The notes under the pieces were generated by a model, which was given only the letters and a program-made list of their open reading frames with translations, was not told the DNA's origin and made no database searches. From the NCBI RefSeq assembly GCF_000972785.3, contig NZ_CP011253.3, positions 5,566,312 through 5,630,311 of the forward strand: a stretch of 64,000 nucleotides of DNA, read 5' to 3'. Both the position numbers and the translations under genes were made by a program. Shown piece by piece: positions 1,041 through 13,687 of this stretch (position 1 is the stretch's first letter; the number at the start of each line of letters is the position of its first letter). The DNA comes from Pandoraea oxalativorans. Its GTDB lineage: Bacteria; Pseudomonadota; Gammaproteobacteria; Burkholderiales; Burkholderiaceae.

Positions 1041-1130
1041 ATGCAACTCATTCAGATCGAACCGACGTTGTCCAACCAGTCCAATGATGCCTACAACACG
1101 CCGCACACTGCACCGGCCAAGAACAGCTAA
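1041..1130 (+). CDS. 29-residue peptide, candidate precursor of a modified peptide metabolite
   Basis: A short reading frame of 29 codons with a well-placed ribosome site (GGAG, 8 bases before ATG). It begins MQLIQIEPTLSNQSN and ends PHTAPAKNS. It has no cysteine, no signal peptide and no membrane segment; the C-terminal half is rich in Asn, Thr, Pro, Ala and contains one Tyr and one His. It lies directly upstream of a SagB-type dehydrogenase, a carbamoyltransferase and an MFS exporter on the same strand, so it could be a RiPP precursor or a peptide scaffold. I do not recognise the sequence. The alternative is a short leader peptide or a chance frame, although its ribosome site and position argue for translation. 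Confidence 0.55.
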   Translation: MQLIQIEPTLSNQSNDAYNTPHTAPAKNS

Positions 1131-1146
1131 GGACTAGACCTTGCAA

Positions 1147-1168
1147 CGGACGCTGGGCCCGGCGTCCG
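1147..1168 (+). promoter_or_regulatory. hairpin between peptide gene and sagB
   Basis: A perfect 7-base inverted repeat (CGGACGC at 1147-1153, GCGTCCG at 1162-1168) with an 8-base loop and no T-tract. It sits in the 59-base gap between the peptide gene and sagB. Its position would suit an RNA-processing or attenuation hairpin that yields more peptide mRNA than enzyme mRNA; that role is inferred. Confidence 0.4.
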
Positions 1169-1631
1169 GTCTCAGGCTTAGGCATACCAATGACACCCAC
1201 ATTGTTCTTGAAAATTCTAGACGGGCGACTCGTTCTCTGGGACTACCAAAATCACAAGCAGTATCAGGTTGACACTGCACATGTGACGAGACTTCTCGAA
1301 TTGGCTACAGGCTCCGAACGCCGCGACGACGCAATCGATACCGAGATAACCGAGGCAGGCGTGCTATCCAAATCCGACCCTGAGGCATGGGGATGGGACT
1401 GCTTGTCTAGGATGTTCCACGTGGGTACACAGGTACCCAGGAGCGAACAAGTTCCGGGGGCAATTCCATACTTGGGATACATCGAGCACTGCACCTCTGT
1501 AGCCGACAAGATTCCCGACAACGAAGTACTTCGCGGCGGACCGATTACGGCGCTCCCAGCCCCGCGCAACATCACCGGCGCGGATTTGGGTTCAACGTTG
1601 AAGGCACGATACACCTGCCGCGCTTTTCTTA

Positions 1632-2938
1632 GGTTCATTGAGCATTACCGGGGAAGGCGGCGCGGATTTTGAGGAAGAAGTATTCCTGGTCTCGGTAGCC
1701 GTAGGCGCGCCGCTTAATGACCTTGATAGTGTTGTTAATGCCCTCAACGATGCTGGTGTTTAGACGATGTCGGCATCTGGCCAGGATGCCATGCAGATAG
1801 CCTTTCAGACGCTGAGCGAAGGTGTTCAAGGGGGCTATTCCGCTTTGCTCGGCCTGCTCGCACCAGTGGTGCCAGGCTTGTTTTGCCCAGGCAGGTCTTC
1901 GGTAGAACCAGAGCCGCTTGAGTTCGTCCCTCAGGACATAGACCGTCAGCAGCGGCTGGTTGGCTTGCAGCAATTCGTCGAGCCGGACGGCCTGCTGCCG
2001 GTCTAGCTTGTCGCGGTTGCGCAATAACAGCCAGCGGCTCGATTTGATGACCCGGCGCGCGGGACGGTCCTGGCGCAGTTGGTTGGCCTGATCCACGCGC
2101 ACCCGATCAATGACCTCTCGTCCGTACTTGGCCACGACATGGAACAAGTCATAGACGATCTCCGCCCGTGGGCAGTGGGCCTGGATTTCTAACTCGTAGG
2201 CCGTAGTCATGTCGATGGCTACGGCCTTGATGCGTTGGGCGACCCCACGCGGCAATTGCTCGAAGAACGCCCGAGCCGTCTCGCGTGAGCGTCCTGGGCC
2301 GATCCACAGCACCTGCCTGCTGATCGGATCGACGACTACCGTCGCGTACCGATGCCCTTTATGCAGGGCGAACTCGTCCATCGCTAAATACTCGATCCTG
2401 GACCAATCCGGTTCGCGCACTGACGCTCGGAGCCGGGCCTTGTCCAGCGTCTTGACGGTATGCCAACCCAGCTCGAAGAACCTCGCCACCGCCTGCACGT
2501 TGCTCGATTGCAGCAATTGGCTGCAGGCCGCCGCAAGCCGATCCGTCACCCGCTGGTAGCGACCCAGCCAAGTAAGCCGCTCCAGGCGCGGGCCACCGCA
2601 TTGCTCACACAACAAGCGCCGGCGTGGAACATGAAGAACAACCCGGTACTCAAATAACGGCAGATCTCGCACCCGGCGCACCGTGGTCTCATGGACCTGG
2701 CGACATCGTGCGCCGCACTGCTCGCACAGCATCACCTTGGCGGTTGGCTTCAAATAGATCGACAGCGTGCGCCCTGTGCCCTCGGGCCACTCCACGCGTT
2801 CGACGGCATAGCCCTGCCAGCCTCCCAGCGACTCCAGCAGCTTGCGATCCAGCATCTCCACGCACTCCTGATGGCAAATTCCTGCCATCAAGAGTACGAA
2901 AACTTGTCAAATCCCTCCACGCTATTGCGCGATGAACC
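1632..2938 (-). mobile_element. ISL3-family insertion sequence, 1307 bases
   Basis: The ends are imperfect inverted repeats: GGTTCATTGAGCATTACCGG on the left and, read on the minus strand, GGTTCATCGCGCAATAGCGT on the right. They are bounded by the 8-base duplication TTTTCTTA. The element carries one transposase gene on the minus strand whose stop codon lies inside the left terminal repeat. It appears complete, and excision would reconstitute the sagB reading frame. Confidence 0.92.
1635..2855 (-). CDS. ISL3-family transposase
   Basis: About 406 residues from ATG 2855 (MLDRKLLESLGG); a longer frame from 2891 is possible but less likely. N-terminal cysteine pairs of the zinc-finger type (CEQCGARC near residue 40, CEQCGG near residue 75) precede the DDE transposase core (MDEFALHKGHRYATVVVD, AVAIDMTTAYE) and the family's C-terminal block ending FFLKIRAAFPGNAQ. 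Length and layout fit an intact ISL3 transposase, so the element may be active. Confidence 0.93.
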   Translation of the reverse strand: MLDRKLLESLGGWQGYAVERVEWPEGTGRTLSIYLKPTAKVMLCEQCGARCRQVHETTVRRVRDLPLFEYRVVLHVPRRRLLCEQCGGPRLERLTWLGRYQRVTDRLAAACSQLLQSSNVQAVARFFELGWHTVKTLDKARLRASVREPDWSRIEYLAMDEFALHKGHRYATVVVDPISRQVLWIGPGRSRETARAFFEQLPRGVAQRIKAVAIDMTTAYELEIQAHCPRAEIVYDLFHVVAKYGREVIDRVRVDQANQLRQDRPARRVIKSSRWLLLRNRDKLDRQQAVRLDELLQANQPLLTVYVLRDELKRLWFYRRPAWAKQAWHHWCEQAEQSGIAPLNTFAQRLKGYLHGILARCRHRLNTSIVEGINNTIKVIKRRAYGYRDQEYFFLKIRAAFPGNAQ

Positions 2939-3493
2939 TTTTCTTAACCGTCCCGTATCTCTTCAAGATGTGGCAGATACGCTGTGGACGACATTCGGCG
3001 CGGTCCATGGAAGCTCACGCACGGACCTGTCCCAGTTAGGAATGCGCTCCGTCGGCTATCGGCGCACCTCGCCTTCGGGCGGATCCATGCAGCCCAGCGA
3101 ACCATTTCTCGTCGCGCTCAACGTTTCCGGGCTTTCACCTGGCGTATACCACTATCGATCAATTCGCCACGAACTCTCCTACGTCGGAGATGCGCCGAGT
3201 GACGATACGGTTTGCCGATTGCTCTGCGGTCAAACGGTTGCAAAAGAGCTAGCGTATGGGGTGTTCGTGACCTCTCGCTTTGACAAGCTATGGTGGAAAT
3301 ATCCCCACTCACGCGCTTACCGTGTCGCCCTAATGGACGTGGGGTGCCTAGCGCAAACTTTTCAATTGGTGTCGACGGCACTGGGCATCCAATCATGGGC
3401 CACCGGCTACTTTATCGATACTGACGTGGTAATGCCCCCTGAAATCCACCGCTAGGAGAAGTAGAATTTTCTCGTTAAGAGGGAGTTCTGCAG

Positions 3494-3760
3494 ATGAAGA
3501 AGTCGAGATTCACGGACAGCCAGATACTGGAGGCGCTCAAGCGCGCGGAGGCTGGGCTGGCGGTGCCGGAGCTGTGCCGAGAACTGGGCATCAGTTCGGC
3601 AACGTTTTATAAGTGGCGCTCGAAGTACGGCGGCATGGACGCGTCGATGATGTCGCGCATGAAGGAGCTGGAGGCGGAGAATACCCGGCTTCGCAAGATG
3701 TACATCGAGGAGAAGCTCAAGGCTGAGATTGCCTCGGAGGCCCTGCAAAAAAAGTTCTGA
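3494..3760 (+). CDS. IS3-family transposase OrfA
   Basis: 88 residues with a helix-turn-helix ([36 protein letters not shown]) and a leucine-zipper-like C-terminal helix. The 3' end contains the slippery string A AAA AAG (A7G at 3747-3754), in the frame needed for -1 slippage, six bases before the stop codon. Slippage would fuse OrfA to OrfB, the normal way this family makes active transposase. Confidence 0.92.
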
Positions 3761-3780
3761 AGCCATCTCGTCGGCGCGAG

Positions 3781-4581
3781 ATGGCAAAGCAAGTTGTGCA
3801 ACAGCGGCGCGTGTCAATTCGTGTGGCGTGCGCGGTGCTCGGCATCAGCGAGTCGTGCTACCGGTACGCGGCGAAGTTGAACACGGAGAACGAAGAGATT
3901 GCCGACTGGCTACTGCGTATTACGGGCTGCCATCGCAACTGGGGTTTTCTGCTGTGCTACTTCTACCTGCGTAATGTGAAGGGATTCGGCTGGAACCACA
4001 AGCGCATTTACCGGATTTACCGGGAGCTGGAGCTGAACCTGCGCATCAAGCCGAAAAAGCGGCTGGTGCGCGAAACGCCGCAGCCGCTATCGGTACCGGA
4101 GGCCATCAATGAAGTGTGGTCGATGGACTTCATGCATGACCAACTGGTTGACGGGCGCAGTATCCGGACGCTGAACGTGATTGATGATTTCAACCGCGAG
4201 GCGCTGGGCATCGAGGTGGATTTCTCGTTGCCATCCGAGCGGGTGATTCGCACGCTGAAGCAGCATATGGAATGGCGAGGCAAGCCGAAGGTCATCCGGT
4301 GCGACAACGGCCCGGAATATTTGAGTGCGGCCATCGTGACATGGACGCAGAAGCAAGGCATCCGGCTGGAATACATCGAGCCGGGCAAGCCGCAGCAGAA
4401 TGCGTATATCGAACGGTTCAACCGGACTGCGCGATACGAATGGCTGTCGCAGTACCTGTGGGAGGACCTGGAGCAGGTTCGCGAAGCGGCGGCCGACTGG
4501 ATGTGGATTTACAATCACGAGCGCCCGAATATGGCATTGGGCGGTTTTACCCCGAAGCAGCGGCTTGCCATGGTCGCTTAG
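3781..4581 (+). CDS. IS3-family transposase OrfB (integrase domain)
   Basis: 266 residues from ATG 3781; in the fused product it is entered by -1 frameshift at the A7G string near 3750. The rve integrase core is complete: first Asp in VWSMDFMHD, second in [10 protein letters not shown], catalytic Glu in NAYIERFNR, followed by [17 protein letters not shown]. Nothing is missing, so the element could supply active transposase. Confidence 0.93.
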
Positions 4582-5899
4582 TTTCTACTTCTGCTGACCG
4601 TGGAAAACGGGGGCATTACCGCACATTATGTGCGCATACGCCCTTTCACCTTTTCCTCAAGGAACCGCGTGTTATGCGTTGGTGTGGGAGGGTCATATCG
4701 GTCGGTTCTATCACATGGATGAAGCACTGAATATTCAGCTGCTACGCGATGTCATGTGGGGGCCAGGAATTCGATACGCGTTCGCTTACGGCCTCATGGA
4801 CCCGTCCTTCAAACTACAGCCCGGCGCGGTGAGACTGTCCGACGCAGGAAAACTAATGGCACTGGCGGCCTACTGCGATCACATCAACCCGACCCCGGAA
4901 GAGCAGCAGTTGGTCGATATGTTGCTATCGCACCCAAATGAGATCCCCAAGTTTGGAAAAACCGATTTTCAGGAATTCTCGCAGCACAATTGCGGAGTGA
5001 CGTCGAATGCAGGAAAGCGATTGGCGCGCCTTATTTCCGATGCAATCTACAAGCACTTCGAATCTGCAATACGCGACTGTGTAATACAACGCGCACCTTT
5101 GCTGATTTCTGGCGGATGCGGCCTGAACTGCGAATGGAATTCCGCCTTAGAAGATACCGGAATGTTCTCGGACGTCTTTGCTCCTCCGTGTGCGAACGAT
5201 AGCGGTTCCGCCATCGGCACTGCTGCAGACGCACAGTTTCATTTGACTGGTTCAGCCAAGCTAAAGTGGTCTGTATATTCTGGTCCCGCCTTCGTTCTGG
5301 ACGAACTAGAACATGCGGACTTCCATCTGACTCCCGCTACCTCATGTGAGATAGCCAAACAGCTTCATGCCGGCGCGATCCTCGGCTGGGCAAACGGAAA
5401 CGCGGAGATCGGACCACGCGCACTGGGAAATCGCTCAATTCTCGCTAGCCCATTGAATCGGGGCACGCTCGAGAGAATTAATCGACTGAAGCGACGTGAA
5501 GGATTCCGGCCAATTGCTCCCATTTGCCGAGAGGAAGAGGTCTCCGAGCACTTCCTTCCTGCTACCCCTAGTCCTTATATGCTCCACTTCCGGCGCGTAT
5601 TGAGTACTCACCTGCCCGCAGTCACCCACGTCGATGGCTCAGCCCGGGTTCAAACGCTATCTAAAGAACAAAATCCTGCGCTTCACGAGGTTCTTTCCAA
5701 ATTTCGCAAACTGTCGGGGTTCGGTGTCCTTTGCAATACGTCGCTGAATTTCAACGGAACAGGATTCATTAACAGAGCGTCGGATCTAGCTCGCTTTGCT
5801 TTGGACGTCGGGTTTGTCACGGATCGGCGTAATGACGCCGGGGATGATCGCCGTAATGGCGCCAGTTTGAAGTGAGGTAAAACGCGGATTCGAACGGAC

Positions 5900-6688
5900 T
5901 CAAGAATGCGGTTTTTTTGTTGATTTCGCAAGCCGCGTCTGATCGAGGTCAGGCATTGGCCTAGGCGTTCGAAAGCTGTCACCATCGAGCACGATACGAT
6001 AGGCGCCGTGTCGCAGGCGATCGAGTGTGGCGGCGCCGAGGATGCGGTTGCCGGCAAACGCATCGCCCCATTCGCTGAAGTCGAGGTTACTGGTCAGGAT
6101 CGTCGCAGCAGTCTCGTACCTTTCCGCGATCAGGTCGTGGAAGTCTTCATCTTGCGGCGAGCGCAGCGGCTTGAGCGCGAAGTCGTCGACGATGAGAACT
6201 GGTACGCTGACAAGCTGTTTCAGTTTGCGCTCATAGGTACCGGTCGCGCGCGCTGCCTGCAGACTGTTCAATAGCCTGGTCTGCGTGGCGAACACGACAT
6301 CGCGTCCTTGCCGGGCGGCGCAATTGCCCAGTGCCTGGGCCAGGTGTGACTTGCCAGTACCTGTTGGCCCGGCAATGAGAATCGCGACCTTCTCATCGAT
6401 ATAACGGCCGGTAGCAAGGTCGTGAATATGGGTCCGATTCAGGTTTGGCAGCCGGTCGAAGTCGAACGTTTCAAGGGTCTTGCCCATTGCGAAGCCAGCG
6501 CGGGCCAAGCGGGTGCGCAGCTTCTTCTGGTCGCGCCGGGCGACTTCGTCATGCAGCAGCATGGCGAGGAACTCCGTATACGCGAGCTGGCCGTCAATGG
6601 CCTGCCGGTTGCGCTGCTCAAGAGAATCGAGCACGCCGGACAGGCGCAACTGCTTGAGGGCTGTGTTCAGTTCAGGACTGGGGTTCAT
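5900..6688 (-). CDS. istB: IS21-family helper ATPase IstB
   Basis: 262 residues. AAA+ ATPase that assists IstA in target capture. Walker A is AGPTGTGKSHLAQALG (about residue 105), Walker B is VPVLIVDDFALKPL, and the sensor region TILTSNLDFSEW follows. It is downstream of istA with a 6-base gap, the standard IS21 arrangement. Confidence 0.95.
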   Translation of the reverse strand: MNPSPELNTALKQLRLSGVLDSLEQRNRQAIDGQLAYTEFLAMLLHDEVARRDQKKLRTRLARAGFAMGKTLETFDFDRLPNLNRTHIHDLATGRYIDEKVAILIAGPTGTGKSHLAQALGNCAARQGRDVVFATQTRLLNSLQAARATGTYERKLKQLVSVPVLIVDDFALKPLRSPQDEDFHDLIAERYETAATILTSNLDFSEWGDAFAGNRILGAATLDRLRHGAYRIVLDGDSFRTPRPMPDLDQTRLAKSTKKPHS

Positions 6689-6694
6689 GGGTGT

Positions 6695-8233
6695 TTAGTG
6701 GATCAGCAGGGATTGGAGATTGCGACCGAAGCGGCCGCCGTTGACGTAGGTATCGGTGAGCGTTTGCGGGGACGCTGCGATGGGCTCGCTTTCCAGACCT
6801 TTGTCCAGAATCGTCTTGACCGTTCGCCATCTGGGACTAGCATGGGCCAACGCCCGTTCGCATGCGGCATCCAGCCGCGCGTCACCCACCTTGCCACGAA
6901 GTCGGACAATCCCCTGCGCACCGCGCAGGTTGACAAGCACCTCATCGTTGAAGAGCGTCAGAATCAGCGCGTGGCAGGCAGGACCGATTTCTTTGGCCCG
7001 CGCCAGACACCATTGCGGATCGTGTTCGAGCCACGCCTGCGCTGCCGGGGGCTGATGATCGCGGACGGTAGAGCGTGCGCCTGGCTTGCGCAGCCGGGGA
7101 TGGGTGGCCACGAGTTCGTGCTGATGGAACAGCTGCACGACCGTGTCTGTCGCCTTCACCCACAGCGTCTTGCCGACCAGGGCGAACGGCACCGAGTAAA
7201 GCGCCTTGTGATGCTGGATGTGAGCGTCACGATGAACGGTCACCGTGGACCATGCGGCGAGCACGGGCGGTACATCGGGCAGCGCCGTCAATAGCGGCTT
7301 CTCGATGGCGAAGCGCGCCAGCGGCTGTTCGCGTGTCGTGCCGTGCTCACGAACGCTGGCTTCCTGCATGATCCATTTGCGCAGTTGCCGATTGGCATCC
7401 GGCAGATCACGAAACGCGCGCAGCGGCATGAAGGACTTCTTGACGTATTTGACTCCCGATTCAACGACGCCCTTCTTCTGCGGGTCGTGCGGGGGACAGG
7501 CATCGATCCTGAAGCCATATCCTTCAGCGAGGCCCGCGTAGGAACGCTGGACCTCGGGGTCGTACGTGCATGCCCTGATGATCGCGCACTTCGCGTTGTC
7601 GATAATGATTCGCCCGGGACAGCCGCCGAACCACTCGAAGGCGCGCCGGTGACAGGCCAGCCACGTCTCGACGGTCTGATCGAACACGAGTTCGACATAC
7701 TGATGACGCGACCAGCATAGCGTCATGACGAAGAACCACGTCTTGAGCGTGCGACCTGATTCGTGGATGAGCGCGGGACCGGCGCCGAAATCAACCTGCG
7801 CGGCATCGGCCGGCGGGAAGTCCAGAATCGTCGTCGCGGTGACACTGCGTTCGGCCTCCAGATGCTTGAGGAAGCGACGCACAGCCGAGTAGCTGCCGGT
7901 GTAGCCATGGTTACGTTTGAGTGCACTGTGAATCGTCGTGCCCTGCACGTCAGCTCCGAACCAGTTGCTGATCTGCTCGCGAAAGGGCTCGAGCGTCGAC
8001 ACGCAGGTGCTGGGCAGGTGTGGCGTGCGGCCGAACTGGCCGGCGATCACGCTGTCTTGCGGCAGCGGCCGCGACGGATCGAGCCAGCCGAGCTCTTGCG
8101 CGGTGCGCCTTACGGCGGTGAGCTTCTTGCGGCCCATAAGCCCGGCGCGCGCTATGTCGCGGTCGGAATCGCCTTGCCGCATGCGGACAAGGACTTGGCG
8201 GTACTCAAACAATTCGAACCTCCGGTTGGCCAT
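6695..8233 (-). CDS. istA: IS21-family transposase IstA
   Basis: 512 residues from ATG 8233 (MANRRFELFEYRQVLVRM). The N-terminal helix-turn-helix (DSDRDIARAGLMGRKKLTAVRR) is followed by the rve catalytic core (VDFGAGPALIHESGR, ...IIIDNAKCAI..., GVVESGVKYVKKSFMPLR) and a C-terminal beta domain typical of the family. A longer frame upstream to 8329 would run into the terminal repeats and is rejected. It appears intact. Confidence 0.94.
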   Translation of the reverse strand: MANRRFELFEYRQVLVRMRQGDSDRDIARAGLMGRKKLTAVRRTAQELGWLDPSRPLPQDSVIAGQFGRTPHLPSTCVSTLEPFREQISNWFGADVQGTTIHSALKRNHGYTGSYSAVRRFLKHLEAERSVTATTILDFPPADAAQVDFGAGPALIHESGRTLKTWFFVMTLCWSRHQYVELVFDQTVETWLACHRRAFEWFGGCPGRIIIDNAKCAIIRACTYDPEVQRSYAGLAEGYGFRIDACPPHDPQKKGVVESGVKYVKKSFMPLRAFRDLPDANRQLRKWIMQEASVREHGTTREQPLARFAIEKPLLTALPDVPPVLAAWSTVTVHRDAHIQHHKALYSVPFALVGKTLWVKATDTVVQLFHQHELVATHPRLRKPGARSTVRDHQPPAAQAWLEHDPQWCLARAKEIGPACHALILTLFNDEVLVNLRGAQGIVRLRGKVGDARLDAACERALAHASPRWRTVKTILDKGLESEPIAASPQTLTDTYVNGGRFGRNLQSLLIH

Positions 8234-9199
8234 GGGCGCTCCGCTCAGAAAAGAGCGAAGCGTACCCAGTTGGGAAAGTTCGAACCGCGTTTCACTGCAC
8301 GACGCAGGTGGCGCCAATACGCCGATCATTACGTGGCACCATTACGGCGATCCTCGACTGGCGCCTTTACGCCGATCCTGCGCTGGCGCCTATGCGCCGA
8401 TCATCAATTGGCTCCTATACGGCGATCCGTGACAGGGTTAGACGGCTTCGTCATCGGAGGAAGCCTTTACATGCGTAAGCAGGGTGCAACATTGACACCT
8501 CGAGATCAGCCTTGAAACATACCTTTCGCGCACAAAGCTATTCGCGTCTGCTGGCGTCCCGCGCGGTTGGAGCTTCGATCCTATGGATAGACTTCACATT
8601 GATTTTCGAGAGTCTCGCATTTCGCTGGGATGCCGACGCTGTAGTCATTGGACTAGCCATGACGTTTTACGGAGTTCCTGGCGTTCTCGCTGGCCCATGG
8701 ATCGGTGCCTTCGTTGACCGTCGTTGTCCCTGGGTCATGCTTCGTTGGAGCTACGTCATTCGCGCGGTCGCCGCGATAGCCCTTTTGCTCGCACCTACAC
8801 TTCAGCTATTCCTGATTTGTGTGGCAATGAAAGGACTGGCCAATTTGATTCCTGGCCCAGCCGAGCAGCAATTGTTTCGCCGCCTGCTTTCCAATGACGC
8901 GCTTGCCGGAAACACAAGCAAAGTTACCTTGATCGACCAGATGGCCAAGCTCGTCGCGCCACTCATCGCCGCGATGCTAGCGGCATGGCATTTGCCAGGA
9001 TTCGCAGTGTCTGCCGCACTTGGACTTGCGGGTGTCGTTCTACTTCCTGGACGCGAAGTGTCCACGAAGCACGTCAGAGCCAACGTCCACAGACGTCCTG
9101 TATGGGCAGTGTTCCATGCCGTACTGCGGGACCACCCCCTACTACGACGTGTATTCACCGTGAACCGCCCCGGATTTTGTGGAGATACCGTCTTGCCCG

Positions 9200-10183
9200 T
9201 CAAGCGATTGCGACGTAGTTCGCCCGATAAGGCTGTCGTGTCTTCAGAACGCCGAAACACAGATGCACAAGCTTACGCATTGCAGCGCCGAGTATAGACA
9301 TGGTGGATTTGCCACGCGCTGCCAAGCGTTCACACAATGCCTTGATGTGGGGGTTATAGCGTTTAGCGACGACGGCCGCCATGTAGAGAGTTGCCCGTAC
9401 CTTGGGCGGCCCGGCCTTCGATAAACGTGAAGGGCCCTGGATCGACGATCCCGACTGCCTCTGCACCGGCACCAGGCCGAGATACGCCGCAAGTTGTTCT
9501 GCAGAATCGAAGTGGCGCGCGTGCATGATGGCAAGCAGCGTGCGGCCTACCTGAGGGCCAACTGCCGGGATACTTTGCAGCAGCATCAAGTTTGCTTTAA
9601 GGCCCGGATGGGCAGCAATGTGATCATCGATCTCGCGTTGCAGGCTGGCTAAATGGCGCTCCAAAAACTCGATCGTCTCGAGAATCGAATGCAGGACTAG
9701 CGCCGTTGGAGCCGTGATTTCCGCTTTCTCATGCCGGTTGCGCTCACGCTGAAGATCTTGTGCAAGCGCTTCACGGCGCGCCATCAGTGCTTGAAGTATG
9801 CGAGCCTCGGGCGCTGGAGGACTCCAGCGCATTGGCTGTGCGTGCATCGCAAAGCGCGCTAACACGTGGCTGTCTACCATGTCGTTCTTCGTGCGCACGC
9901 CCATTCCCGTCGCAAAAGCACGCACCTGCGCAGGATTAACGACAGACACGGAGAGCCCGGCATCGTGCAGGCCACACGCGGCCATCTCGTGATAGACGCC
10001 GGTACCTTCGAGCGCGACATGTACGTGGCTCGGCTCGGTGTGTCTCTTGCCCAACCAGCCCAACAGATCGGTTAGGCCGGCGCGGCTATTGGCAACAACC
10101 TTCGTACTATGCTTGCCGTTTGTCATGTCCAGCAGGCAGCAATCCAGCTTGGCTTTGGCAACATCAATACCGAGGTAGAACAT
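9200..10183 (-). CDS. IS110-family DEDD transposase (element A, copy 1)
   Basis: 327 residues from ATG 10183 with an AAGGA ribosome site; an upstream GTG frame start at 10249 would read through the guide-RNA region and is rejected. The N-terminal RuvC-like DEDD domain (MFYLGIDVAKAKLDCCLLD, VALEGTGVYHEMA, TKNDMVDSHVLARFA) precedes the C-terminal transposase domain with its serine (LLLQSIPAVGPQVGRTLLA, AYLGLVPVQRQSGSS). The sequence looks intact and is nearly identical to the second copy, so transposition is probably recent. Confidence 0.95.
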   Translation of the reverse strand: MFYLGIDVAKAKLDCCLLDMTNGKHSTKVVANSRAGLTDLLGWLGKRHTEPSHVHVALEGTGVYHEMAACGLHDAGLSVSVVNPAQVRAFATGMGVRTKNDMVDSHVLARFAMHAQPMRWSPPAPEARILQALMARREALAQDLQRERNRHEKAEITAPTALVLHSILETIEFLERHLASLQREIDDHIAAHPGLKANLMLLQSIPAVGPQVGRTLLAIMHARHFDSAEQLAAYLGLVPVQRQSGSSIQGPSRLSKAGPPKVRATLYMAAVVAKRYNPHIKALCERLAARGKSTMSILGAAMRKLVHLCFGVLKTRQPYRANYVAIA

Positions 10184-10199
10184 CAATTTGATCCTTAAT

Positions 10200-10393
10200 C
10201 GAGGAATCAATACCAACTCACCCACTTGCCTTGTACATACAGGGTCCACGCCCTTGGCTACCGTTCAGTGTCTGTGCTGGTGAGGGCGAGGCGAAGGGCA
10301 TTATCTCCACAGCAAGGTCCAAGCCTTCAGGCTCCAAACATGCTCACTTCACCTCATGTGACGGTAGCTAACCATCACGAAGACGAAGATACA
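10200..10393 (-). ncRNA. candidate bridge RNA of IS110 element A, copy 1
   Basis: This is the non-coding end upstream of the transposase, where IS110-group elements encode a bridge RNA. On the minus strand it contains TTTGGAGCCT (plus 10329-10338), identical to the left half of its own insertion site, then TGTGGAGA (plus 10304-10311), complementary to the right half CTCCACA. Further on are ACGGTA (plus 10259-10264), matching the element's right end GACGGTATCT, and GTACAAG (plus 10230-10236), largely complementary to its left end CTTGTATC. The order target-left, target-right, donor-left, donor-right is that described for bridge RNAs. RNA ends and folding are not determined. Confidence 0.6.
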
Positions 10394-10421
10394 AGGCTCC
10401 AACTCTTGAGAGAATGGAGCC

Positions 10422-10748
10422 ATGAACAAGAGATCGAGCAAGTTTTCCCCGGAAGTCCGGGAGCGCGCAGTGCGCCTGGTGCGCGAGCAGCGTAGCGAGC
10501 ATCCGTCGCTGTGGGCGGCGGTCGAGTCGATTGCGCCGATGATCGGCTGCACGCCGCAAACGCTGAACGATTGGGTCAAGCGCGACGAGATCGATAACGG
10601 CGAACGTGCCGGCCTGAGCGCGAGCGAGCGTGATCGCCTGAAGGCGCTGGAGCGCGAGAACAAGGAATTGCGCAAGACCAACGAGATTCTCAAACTGGCC
10701 AGCGCGTTTTTCGCCCAGGCGGAGCTCGACCGCCGTATCAAGTCCTGA
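10422..10748 (+). CDS. IS51-group transposase OrfA
   Basis: 108 residues with an N-terminal helix-turn-helix ([26 protein letters not shown]) and a coiled-coil C-terminal helix ([33 protein letters not shown]). A run of five T followed by C at 10707-10712 is a likely -1 slippage site: the shifted frame reads [10 protein letters not shown], continuing into OrfB. The usual upstream promoter region is separated from the left end by IS110 element A. Confidence 0.9.
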
Positions 10749-11399
10749 AAGCCTTCATCGATCAGCATCGCGACACCTTCGGGGTCGAGTCGATCTGCAA
10801 GGTTTTGCGGATTGCCCCGTCGGGTTACTGGCGCCATGCTGCCCAGCTTCGCGATCCATCCAAGCGCTGCGCCCGAGTCAAGCGTGACGACGTGCTGTGC
10901 CCGGAAATCCAGCGTGTCTGGCACGCCAACATGCGGGTCTACGGCGCAGACAAGGTCTGGAGGCAGATGAACCGGGAGCAAATTCGGGTGGCCCGCTGCA
11001 CGGTCGAGCGACTGATGCAGCGGCTGGGATTGCAAGGCGCGGTGCGCGGCAAACGGGTTCGCACAACGATTCCCGATGTCTCGGCACCTCGCCCGCTGGA
11101 CCGGGTCAATCGCCAATTCAAAGCCGACCGGCCGAATCAGCTCTGGGTTTCCGATTTCACCTACGTTTCGACGTGGCAGGGCTGGCTGTACGTGGCGTTC
11201 GTCATCGACGTGTTTGCACGACGCATCGTTGGCTGGCGGGTGAGTCGTACCATGCGCACCGACTTCGTACTCGATGCGCTTGAACAAGCGCTGTATGCCC
11301 GCCAACCGGGCGACGACGGGACGCTGATCCATCACTCCGACAGTAAGAATACGGGTATCAGATGTTTCCGGGCTTCTCGCGGCTTTCAATGAGGGCTGT

Positions 11400-11600
11400 C
11401 CGGCGACTTTTGGTGCCGTAAAGCGTTCCGGGCGACCTGACCCACATTCCGATCGACGTAGTGTCTTTCCCCTGACCTGTCGATCGTCCGGAACCGCCGA
11501 GCGGCGAGGTTTCGCCTCGTCGATACGTGTGACTCAAGAAGGGCCTGACGCTCTGTCGCTTTACTGTCTTGTCCAGGTACTCGATGCCGGTGAAATCGCC
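11400..11600 (+). ncRNA. candidate bridge RNA of IS110 element B
   Basis: This is the non-coding stretch upstream of the transposase. In order it contains TCCGA (11448-11452), matching the left half of the insertion site (CTCCGACAG); TCCCCTG (11468-11474), complementary to the right half (CAGGGGA); AGAAGGGC (11537-11544), identical to eight bases of the element's own right end (12722-12729); and TTACTG (11561-11566), complementary to its left end CAGTAA. All four guide classes appear in the expected order, but the short matches make this weaker than element A. Confidence 0.5.
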
Positions 11601-11630
11601 TCAATCTCATCGGCAACCGGAGCAAGGCTC

Positions 11631-12716
11631 ATGAAAGAAGAACCGGCTATTTCTGGATATCGCAACGTTGTGGGCGGCGTGGATACCCATAAGGACGTGC
11701 ATGTTGCAGCTGTCGTTGACGAACACGATCGTCTGCTCGGCAGTGAATGCTTCCCTACCACGCGGCATGGCTACAAACAGATGCTGCTCTGGATGCGCTC
11801 ATTCGGAGAGCTTGCCCGGGTTGGCGTCGAATGCACCGGCTCCTACGGAGCGGGCTTGCTTCGCTACCTTCAACTGGCCCACGTAACGGTGCTTGAGGTC
11901 ACGGCACCCGACAGGAGCGACCGGCGCAAACGCGGCAAGGACGACACGCTGGACGCTTGCAACGCGGCGCATGCTGCCTTTGCTGGTGTGCGTACAGTCA
12001 CGCCCAAGACACGCGACGGCATGATTGAATCGCTGCGCGTTCTGAAAGTCTGCCGGAAGACCGCCATCTCCGCGAGGCGCGTTGCATTGCAACTAATTCA
12101 CAGTACCATCATCAGCGCGCCTGACGAGTTACGCGAATCGCTGCGCAAGATGACACGGATGCAGCTTATTCGAACATTGGCCGCGTGGCGTCCCGATCTG
12201 TCTGACTATCGGAGCCTGATCTCTGCCAACCGGATTGCATTAAAATCACTGGGGCGTCGGTATCTCGAGTTGCACGACGAGATCGCCGACCTCGATGTCA
12301 TGATCGCGGCTCTGGTCGATGAACTCGCCCCCGATCTGGTCTCCCGGTATTCAATTGGCTATGAGTCCGCTTCGCAACTGCTACTGACCGCTGGCGACAA
12401 CAGCGACCGGCTTCAGTCAGAGGCCAGCTTCGCCGCCCTCTGTGGAGTGAGTCCCGTCCCGGCGTCTTCTGGCAAGGTGACACGACATCGACTGAATCGC
12501 GGTGGAGATCGCGCGGCCAACAGCGCCCTGCACATTATCGCCATCGGTCGATTGCGAACCGACGATCGCACAAAAGCCTATGTCGCCAAACGCGTCAGCG
12601 AGGGCCACTCAAAGCTTGAAGCGATTCGATGCCTCAAGCGCTATATCGCACGAGAGGTCTTCTACGCCATCCGGCAACGTTACCGCCAGATCGCGCAGAC
12701 CCAATTTACCTCTTGA
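11631..12716 (+). CDS. IS110-family transposase (element B)
   Basis: 361 residues from ATG 11631 with GGAG eight bases upstream. DEDD domain: VVGGVDTHKDVHVAAVVDE, VGVECTGSYGAGLL, GKDDTLDACNAAHAA. C-terminal domain: SASQLLLTAGDNSDRL, FAALCGVSPVPASSGKVTRH (serine motif), RGGDRAANSALHIIAIGRL. A longer frame starting at 11529 would overlap the guide-RNA region. It looks complete. Confidence 0.94.
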   Translation: MKEEPAISGYRNVVGGVDTHKDVHVAAVVDEHDRLLGSECFPTTRHGYKQMLLWMRSFGELARVGVECTGSYGAGLLRYLQLAHVTVLEVTAPDRSDRRKRGKDDTLDACNAAHAAFAGVRTVTPKTRDGMIESLRVLKVCRKTAISARRVALQLIHSTIISAPDELRESLRKMTRMQLIRTLAAWRPDLSDYRSLISANRIALKSLGRRYLELHDEIADLDVMIAALVDELAPDLVSRYSIGYESASQLLLTAGDNSDRLQSEASFAALCGVSPVPASSGKVTRHRLNRGGDRAANSALHIIAIGRLRTDDRTKAYVAKRVSEGHSKLEAIRCLKRYIAREVFYAIRQRYRQIAQTQFTS

Positions 12717-13687
12717 CCTTTAGAAGGGCGTCAGGGGATCGCAATATGTTTCCATTCGGTACACCGAGCGACTTGCCCAAGCGGGCATTGAGCCATCGGT
12801 CGGCAGCCGCGGCGACAGCTATGACAACGCCCTGGCGGAAACGATCAACGGTCTATACAAAACGGAACTGATTCACCGGCGAGCGCCTTGGAAAACGAAG
12901 GAATCCGTCGAGCTCGCCACCCTGGAATGGGTAGCCTGGTACAACCATCATCGGCTGATGGAACCGCTGGGCTATATCCCGCCAGCCGAGGCTGAGGCAA
13001 ACTACTACAGGCAACTCAGAAATACTGCTGAAGCGCCTGCGTTAACTTAAACCAACCGGCCTCCTCGAAAGCCGGGGCGATTCACCGTTACGCTTTGCCA
13101 AGCATTCGTTTTGGGCTTTTACGACGCATTGTTAGCCCTGTTTCTCAAGGCAAGAGGCTATCCCGACGGCACTTTTGGCAGCATCGTTGGATGTACCGCA
13201 GCGGGTGCCATCATTGGCTCGTTAGCCTTCAAAAGCGCAATCAAAAGATGTTCTCCGACCACTCTGCTAACTGTGTCATCGATACTCTTCGGCTTAACTG
13301 TATTGACGCCCGCAGCAATGGTGTTCGCACAAACCGAAGTGCCCGTCTTCGCAATGCTCTCATTGTGGATAGGCAACGGATTCGGGTACGGACTGGGGGT
13401 CATGTTGGTGATGCTCATGTTCCAACAATATTGTCCGCGCGAAGTATTAGGAACAGTCACGTCCACGGGCAGAAGCCTCCAATTGCTTCTGATGATCATC
13501 GCGCCTCTGCTCGGGGGCGCTCTATCAAACGTGACCAGCATTGAGTTTGTTTTCTTGTGCTCAGGCATGACCGCCATCGGTCTTGGGATATTTACCCGAA
13601 TGGTCCCGATCTCACGCACTCCATCGGCCCACTAAGCCCTCGTCCATACAGCCGTCGGGTGTCACTGGAGTAAGCGGCGCGACCAAC

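Follow-up and report, generated by a model that had tools for sequence, protein, structure and literature searches.

The broken locus in Pandoraea oxalativorans

The window analysed here is a stretch of 64,000 nucleotides which forms the end part of contig 1 in the 6.5 Mb genome of Pandoraea oxalativorans. It contains a gene for a 29-residue peptide followed by pieces of genes for a SagB-type dehydrogenase, a NodU-like carbamoyltransferase and an MFS exporter, which are probably the remains of an operon for a ribosomally synthesized and post-translationally modified peptide (RiPP). The four genes had been recognized from the DNA alone as a set on one strand broken by mobile elements (the sequence-only reading). 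This was confirmed: the pieces and their flanks align in order, as five DNA blocks with 92.7-94.9% identity, to one stretch of locus L016 of P. commovens, the foreign elements sit between these blocks, and domain scans of the window pieces found nitroreductase/SagB, Carbam_trans_N with Carbam_trans_C, and MFS matches. The features are as follows.

1041..1130, + strand: putative precursor peptide gene, 29 aa (MQLIQIEPTLSNQSNDAYNTPHTAPAKNS); protein identical in P. commovens; the cluster's sole whole gene here
1147..1168, + strand: hairpin in the spacer between the peptide gene and sagB, stem 1147-1155 / 1160-1168, from folding of spacer 1131-1189
1190..1626, + strand: sagB piece 1 (predicted domain like a RiPP recognition element (RRE), and dehydrogenase start); 93% protein identity to L016; DNA block
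1627..2943, no strand assigned: ISL3-type element splitting sagB, transposase 1635-2891 (-); PF01610; 8-base direct repeats
2944..3427, + strand: sagB piece 2, the gene's last 133 bp missing; nitroreductase PF00881, TIGR03605
3428..4619, no strand assigned: two transposase frames (3494-3760, 3781-4581) with an IS3-like layout; located where 445 bp of P. commovens sequence are absent
4620..5814, + strand: NodU-like carbamoyltransferase gene piece 1, first 316 bp missing; PF16861, PF02543; 95% protein identity to L016
5815..8434, no strand assigned: IS21-type element splitting the carbamoyltransferase gene, IstB 5900-6688 (-) and transposase 6695-8329 (-); PF01695, PF22483, rve
8435..8515, + strand: last piece of the carbamoyltransferase gene; DNA block match to L016
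8512..9158, + strand: MFS exporter gene piece 1; MFS_1; 94% protein identity to L016
9159..13079, no strand assigned: insert splitting the exporter gene; IS110-type transposases encoded at 9200-10249 (-) and 11529-12716 (+), with a pair of transposase frames at 10422-11392 (+)
13080..13635, + strand: MFS exporter gene piece 2; MFS_1; 96% protein identity to L016

Thus sagB, the carbamoyltransferase gene and the exporter gene are broken, and the peptide gene is whole. The assumption that the segments were simply split by mobile elements holds for three junctions, where direct repeats of 5 or 8 bases, read from the sequence, flank the ISL3-type element, the IS21-type element and the exporter insert. 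It does not hold for the second junction (3428-4619). No direct repeat was seen at the ends of this element when they were read in the same way, and 445 bp of L016, spanning the sagB end and the first part of the carbamoyltransferase gene, have no counterpart there, so that the window cluster is more than interrupted. In the exporter insert, an inverted-repeat search found two 17-base pairs.

At least 40 near-identical copies of the ISL3-type element are present in the genome, on the chromosome and on two smaller contigs (40 of 84 candidates were scored), together with at least 14 full-length copies of the 3428-4619 element and two of the IS21-type element. These copy numbers are consistent with a recent burst of insertion elements. 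The low G+C content that had been pointed out for the island was also found, the cluster pieces having 0.52-0.56 versus 0.66 for the indolepyruvate oxidoreductase gene (IOR).

Intact relatives and the genomic site in Pandoraea

A close carbamoyltransferase, with E values of 3.3e-149 or lower, was found in seven of the 32 Pandoraea genomes surveyed, and these seven also have a close SagB, which is in two pieces in the genome of the window. Peptide, SagB, carbamoyltransferase and MFS genes occur together on one contig in five genomes (G009, G010, G014, G019 and G031); in G011 the cluster genes are divided between the ends of two contigs, IOR being next to the carbamoyltransferase and MFS genes at one of these ends. 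The order of a 29-31 codon peptide gene, SagB-type dehydrogenase, NodU-like carbamoyltransferase and MFS exporter is common to L016, L018, L019, L020 and L021, and neighbouring genes in the intact Pandoraea clusters overlap by 4 bases or almost touch. This is in agreement with the view that the four genes formed one operon. As had been predicted, an intact cluster was found between trpS and IOR (in G009 and G031), and L016 and L018 contain just the four genes between them. Intact loci in which the genes are never adjacent, or a peptide frame that is not conserved, had been named in advance as evidence to the contrary; neither was encountered.

The cluster lies at another site in G010, G014 and G019, where trpS adjoins IOR. 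In 21 of the 30 IOR loci examined, trpS was found at most 1.5 kb from IOR, and no trpS was found within this distance in G023 and G030 (L135 and L134); locus L132 is cut by a contig end. Island G+C is 0.53-0.57 versus 0.62-0.66 for trpS, IOR or the surroundings, the exception being the copy of P. horticolens with surroundings of 0.56. The P. horticolens SagB groups among Cupriavidus sequences in the SagB tree. Across the order, six of 399 genomes searched gave matches, the genome of the window included. The cluster has likely moved horizontally; G+C and the tree speak for the horizontal origin followed by inactivation which was proposed in the sequence-only reading, and the mobile elements account for the inactivation.

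Two further genomes, G004 and G007, have a full-length MFS gene at the trpS-IOR site, with the other three cluster genes gone (L137:5873-7069 and L138:7811-9070). The deletion breakpoints differ between them, and each MFS gene is nearest, among those compared, to the MFS gene of a different intact species, with a ratio of non-synonymous to synonymous change (pN/pS) to it of 0.12 and 0.29. Two losses which spared the exporter suggest that it protects the producer from the cluster product. Whole, broken, exporter-only and empty states of the site are all available within a single genus.

In genome G017, a SagB that is more distant lies about 12 kb from IOR together with a 22-aa frame of its own (MKEIQPESCVMANWTQAAIPLK); the sole carbamoyltransferase match of this genome is weak and on a different contig from the SagB, and no second tailoring enzyme was recognized alongside the peptide-SagB pair (L136:7756-8853). 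The weak SagB matches of G024 and G026 (about 1e-22) each contain a stop, and a QTNDAY pattern match was noted in G015.

The enzymes, the peptide and the wider family

SagB-type enzymes are mainly known as azoline oxidases that act after a YcaO enzyme. TIGR03605 was matched by all 43 SagB rows, the L016 protein scoring 105 bits and the window piece 95.9 bits against a curated cut-off of 78.4. By score, the closest model in NCBIfam was TIGR04511 (putative peptide maturation dehydrogenase), with 142.1, 149.6 and 163.3 bits for three proteins, yet its curated cut-off is 240. The closest structural match of the whole SagB model was ThcOx. For the model of the N-terminal domain, the best-matching rows were RRE-bearing proteins, with ThcOx among the best, and the SagB N-terminus is predicted from these models to resemble an RRE. 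The carbamoyltransferase matched PF02543 and PF16861 above the cut-off as well as NovN-type, GdmN and TobZ chains. YcaO (PF02624) was absent from seven of the eight Pandoraea genomes searched, and the copy in G010 is on a contig (C8) other than that of the cluster (C9). With no YcaO gene beside it, the cluster does not class as one for a linear azol(in)e-containing peptide or a thiazole/oxazole-modified microcin. An encoded precursor next to tailoring enzymes, which characterizes a RiPP cluster, was indicated by the short-frame test and by the synonymous-only core codons described below.

A contig scan for proteins holding one of two short patterns gave 110 SagB relatives, of which 80 form the named loci; the counts below apply to that sample, and L017, L034 and L086 were left out of alignments. 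The named loci come from Pseudomonas (67), Pandoraea (5), Cupriavidus (3), Paraburkholderia, Pararobbsia and Herbaspirillum (1 each) and metagenome-assembled genomes (2). In 79 of the 80, SagB is preceded at a distance of at most 330 bases by a frame 18-60 codons long that fits a loose start pattern and has a ribosome-site-like motif, compared with 48 of 3828 control stretches; with Glu also required at position 7, the counts were 77 and 4.

The core of the peptide follows the second enzyme. Carbamoyltransferase is present in 16 named loci, all of whose peptides contain SN[D/N]AY, and an AurF-type protein in 59, all of whose peptides contain [I/L]AN; PF11583 was found in both AurF-type proteins scanned. 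Core type and partner enzyme therefore match in all 75 loci having one, the remaining five having neither enzyme. Tyr occurs in 16/16 peptides with carbamoyltransferase and in 1/63 without. In the tree of the 43 SagB rows, the carbamoyltransferase group forms one side of a branch with support 93/86; the tree carries a warning of long branches for L033 and for L038/L047 with L054/L064. A peptide with its own task as a small protein, e.g. as a signal, beside SagB and carbamoyltransferase acting on an unrelated small molecule, would agree with the fact that no modification has been observed. This arrangement is very improbable in view of the tight linkage of the peptide to SagB in nearly all named loci and of a core that changes with the second enzyme.

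As a sister arrangement, a MKAITLETNKIANLAFLVAPKTR-type peptide, SagB, an AurF-type protein and an MFS protein are encoded at L036 (approximately 9850-13261) and its equivalents in 59 of the 80 named loci, and an ilvD-like gene comes next in many of the Pseudomonas AurF-type loci. This AurF-type cluster seems to be common in Pseudomonas.

To judge from its codons, the peptide is a selected gene product. Over codons 10-23 (LSNQSNDAYNTPHT) of six Pandoraea rows, a count which leaves out the longer P. horticolens peptide, 13 codons differed synonymously only, one was identical and none changed the residue. The peptide pN/pS was 0.22 for these six rows; it was 0.28 in the P. horticolens-Cupriavidus group (four rows) and 0.36 in Pseudomonas (54 rows, all of the same length). 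The conserved part of the peptide is internal and its C-terminal residues vary. In the Paraburkholderia locus L030, a single 54-aa frame starting 259 bases upstream of sagB carries leader and core twice in tandem, the units showing 7 identical, 13 synonymous and 5 non-synonymous codons over 25 aligned.

The spacer 1131-1189 folds with -23.1 kcal/mol (z -1.4 by itself). A hairpin was found in this spacer in 23/23 loci folded, with stem sequences that differ between groups and z values of -0.8 to -6.7 versus simple shuffles, several of them weak when taken singly. A hairpin after every frame folded, and the shortness of the frames, would suit a regulatory leader open reading frame (ORF), i.e. 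an attenuation or arrest peptide which is no substrate of enzymes making a carbamoylated small molecule. We consider this unlikely, as L030 repeats both leader and core with mostly synonymous differences, the core varies with the partner enzyme and SagB carries the predicted RRE-like domain. Moreover, since the second leader of L030 is not positioned at a start codon, recognition by an enzyme is an easier explanation than translation control.

Proposed pathway and comparison with known systems

Peptide-aminoacyl-tRNA-ligase pathways use a scaffold peptide, at whose end an amino acid is made or altered and then released. That the peptide serves here as such a scaffold, from which a small antimetabolite is released, is quite improbable; one variant of this idea, a gvg-like vinylglycine pathway, had been suggested as a parallel in the sequence-only reading. 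The gvg clusters likewise have a NodU-family carbamoyltransferase and small ORFs (PMC8064604, PMC8067088), and the exporter-only remnants suggest a toxic product. However, the gvg partners gvgA, gvgC, gvgH and gvgI (PMC8064604, PMC8067088) have no equivalent in the intact loci. The genes gvgA, B, C and F form the gvg-like core (PMC8064604), GvgB is predicted to be about 30% lysine (PMC8067088) and the published gene table lists no SagB (PMC8064604, PMC8067088). The 29-residue peptide has one lysine, and its conservation is internal, not at the variable C-terminal end. With just four genes present between trpS and IOR in L016 and L018, identity with the gvg cluster was rejected on gene content and the small ORF. 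The parts of the cluster fit a RiPP pathway better.

The cyanobactin azoline oxidase ThcOx acts after a YcaO cyclodehydratase. It is a SagB-type oxidase like the SagB of the cluster (18-20% identity; PDB 5lq4, 8pz5), but its pathway has a YcaO and no YcaO gene adjoins the present cluster. In the std cluster of Streptomyces thermodiastaticus, a RiPP precursor is likewise the target of a NodU-like carbamoyltransferase (StdF), and an MFS permease and a core containing SN are also shared; the cluster differs in that StdF modifies lysine and in its peptidase fusion, YcaO-TfuA and MNIO enzymes, and the accessible part of the report names no SagB (PMC13174530). Crocagin is also made by a RiPP pathway with a carbamoyltransferase, CgnI, but its maturation proteins (CgnB, C and E) and its scaffold are different (PMC10070186). 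Cluster OS3 of Pseudomonas sp. Os17 pairs a SagB-type protein with a small precursor, and homologues of sagA, sagC or sagD were reportedly not found in it; it differs by an 85-aa precursor, a 650-aa SagB-type protein, an acetyltransferase, a peptidase-like gene and RND efflux genes (PMC7726476). RREs fused to carbamoyltransferases (PMC12710340) and SagB-like enzymes adjoining ATP-grasp enzymes (PMC8939145) are on record. The gene set described here was found in none of the known systems compared, and the searches made in an open-access library turned up no paper recognized as a description of the cluster.

The cluster and its relatives appear from their sequences to form a putative RiPP family without YcaO, with a carbamoyltransferase branch (SN[D/N]AY) and a Pseudomonas AurF-type branch ([I/L]AN). 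In the RiPP pathway that we propose, the short first gene would encode the precursor peptide, the N-terminal M-K-x-I-x-[L/I]-E of which would be bound by the RRE-like domain at the SagB N-terminus. The flavin dehydrogenase part of SagB would then dehydrogenate an adjoining core residue with no YcaO-made azoline, and the NodU-like carbamoyltransferase would next carbamoylate a core side chain, the acceptor perhaps being Tyr or Ser of SN[D/N]AY. A protease encoded elsewhere may trim the peptide, which the MFS protein would export, thus protecting the producer. The hairpin after the first gene would lead to more precursor than enzyme being made.

Two observations weigh against parts of this pathway. 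The match of core and partner enzyme amounts to about one event on the SagB tree, and because the partner enzyme changes there only once, Tyr as the carbamoyl acceptor is kept as a lead only. The exporter gene of the window is itself broken, which runs counter to self-protection. We put forward tentatively, at somewhat short of an even chance, a RiPP class of its own: RRE-SagB fusions which, with no azoline involved, oxidize ordinary residues in an ultra-short precursor, a second enzyme setting the branch (carbamoylation at SN[D/N]AY or, in Pseudomonas, AurF-type oxygenation at [I/L]AN), antagonistic mini-peptides as products and the exporter as an immunity function which non-producing kin retain alone.

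A SagB with a predicted recognition domain stands beside a peptide of 21-31 aa in dozens of genomes, with no YcaO at the sites searched, and two small genes would suffice to test the function of a solo SagB. For mapping the modified residues, natural variants are at hand in the carbamoyltransferase and AurF branches.

Several members of the family have a different composition. In two Pseudomonas loci (L054:11123-12670 and L064:11124-12941), a large gene, with TPR and methyltransferase matches in L054, lies between sagB and the carbamoyltransferase gene; their core is SNNAY, with Gln at position 7. In a gammaproteobacterial metagenome-assembled genome (L033:8947-11751), a SagB relative occurs with an alpha/beta hydrolase gene and a frame of 23 aa (MKKINLERGKGRSFITYIVRKNR), but neither a carbamoyltransferase gene nor one of the AurF type is present. 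In Cupriavidus necator UYPR2.512 (L028:11062-12662), the carbamoyltransferase is not readable as one long frame and is perhaps another decaying copy.
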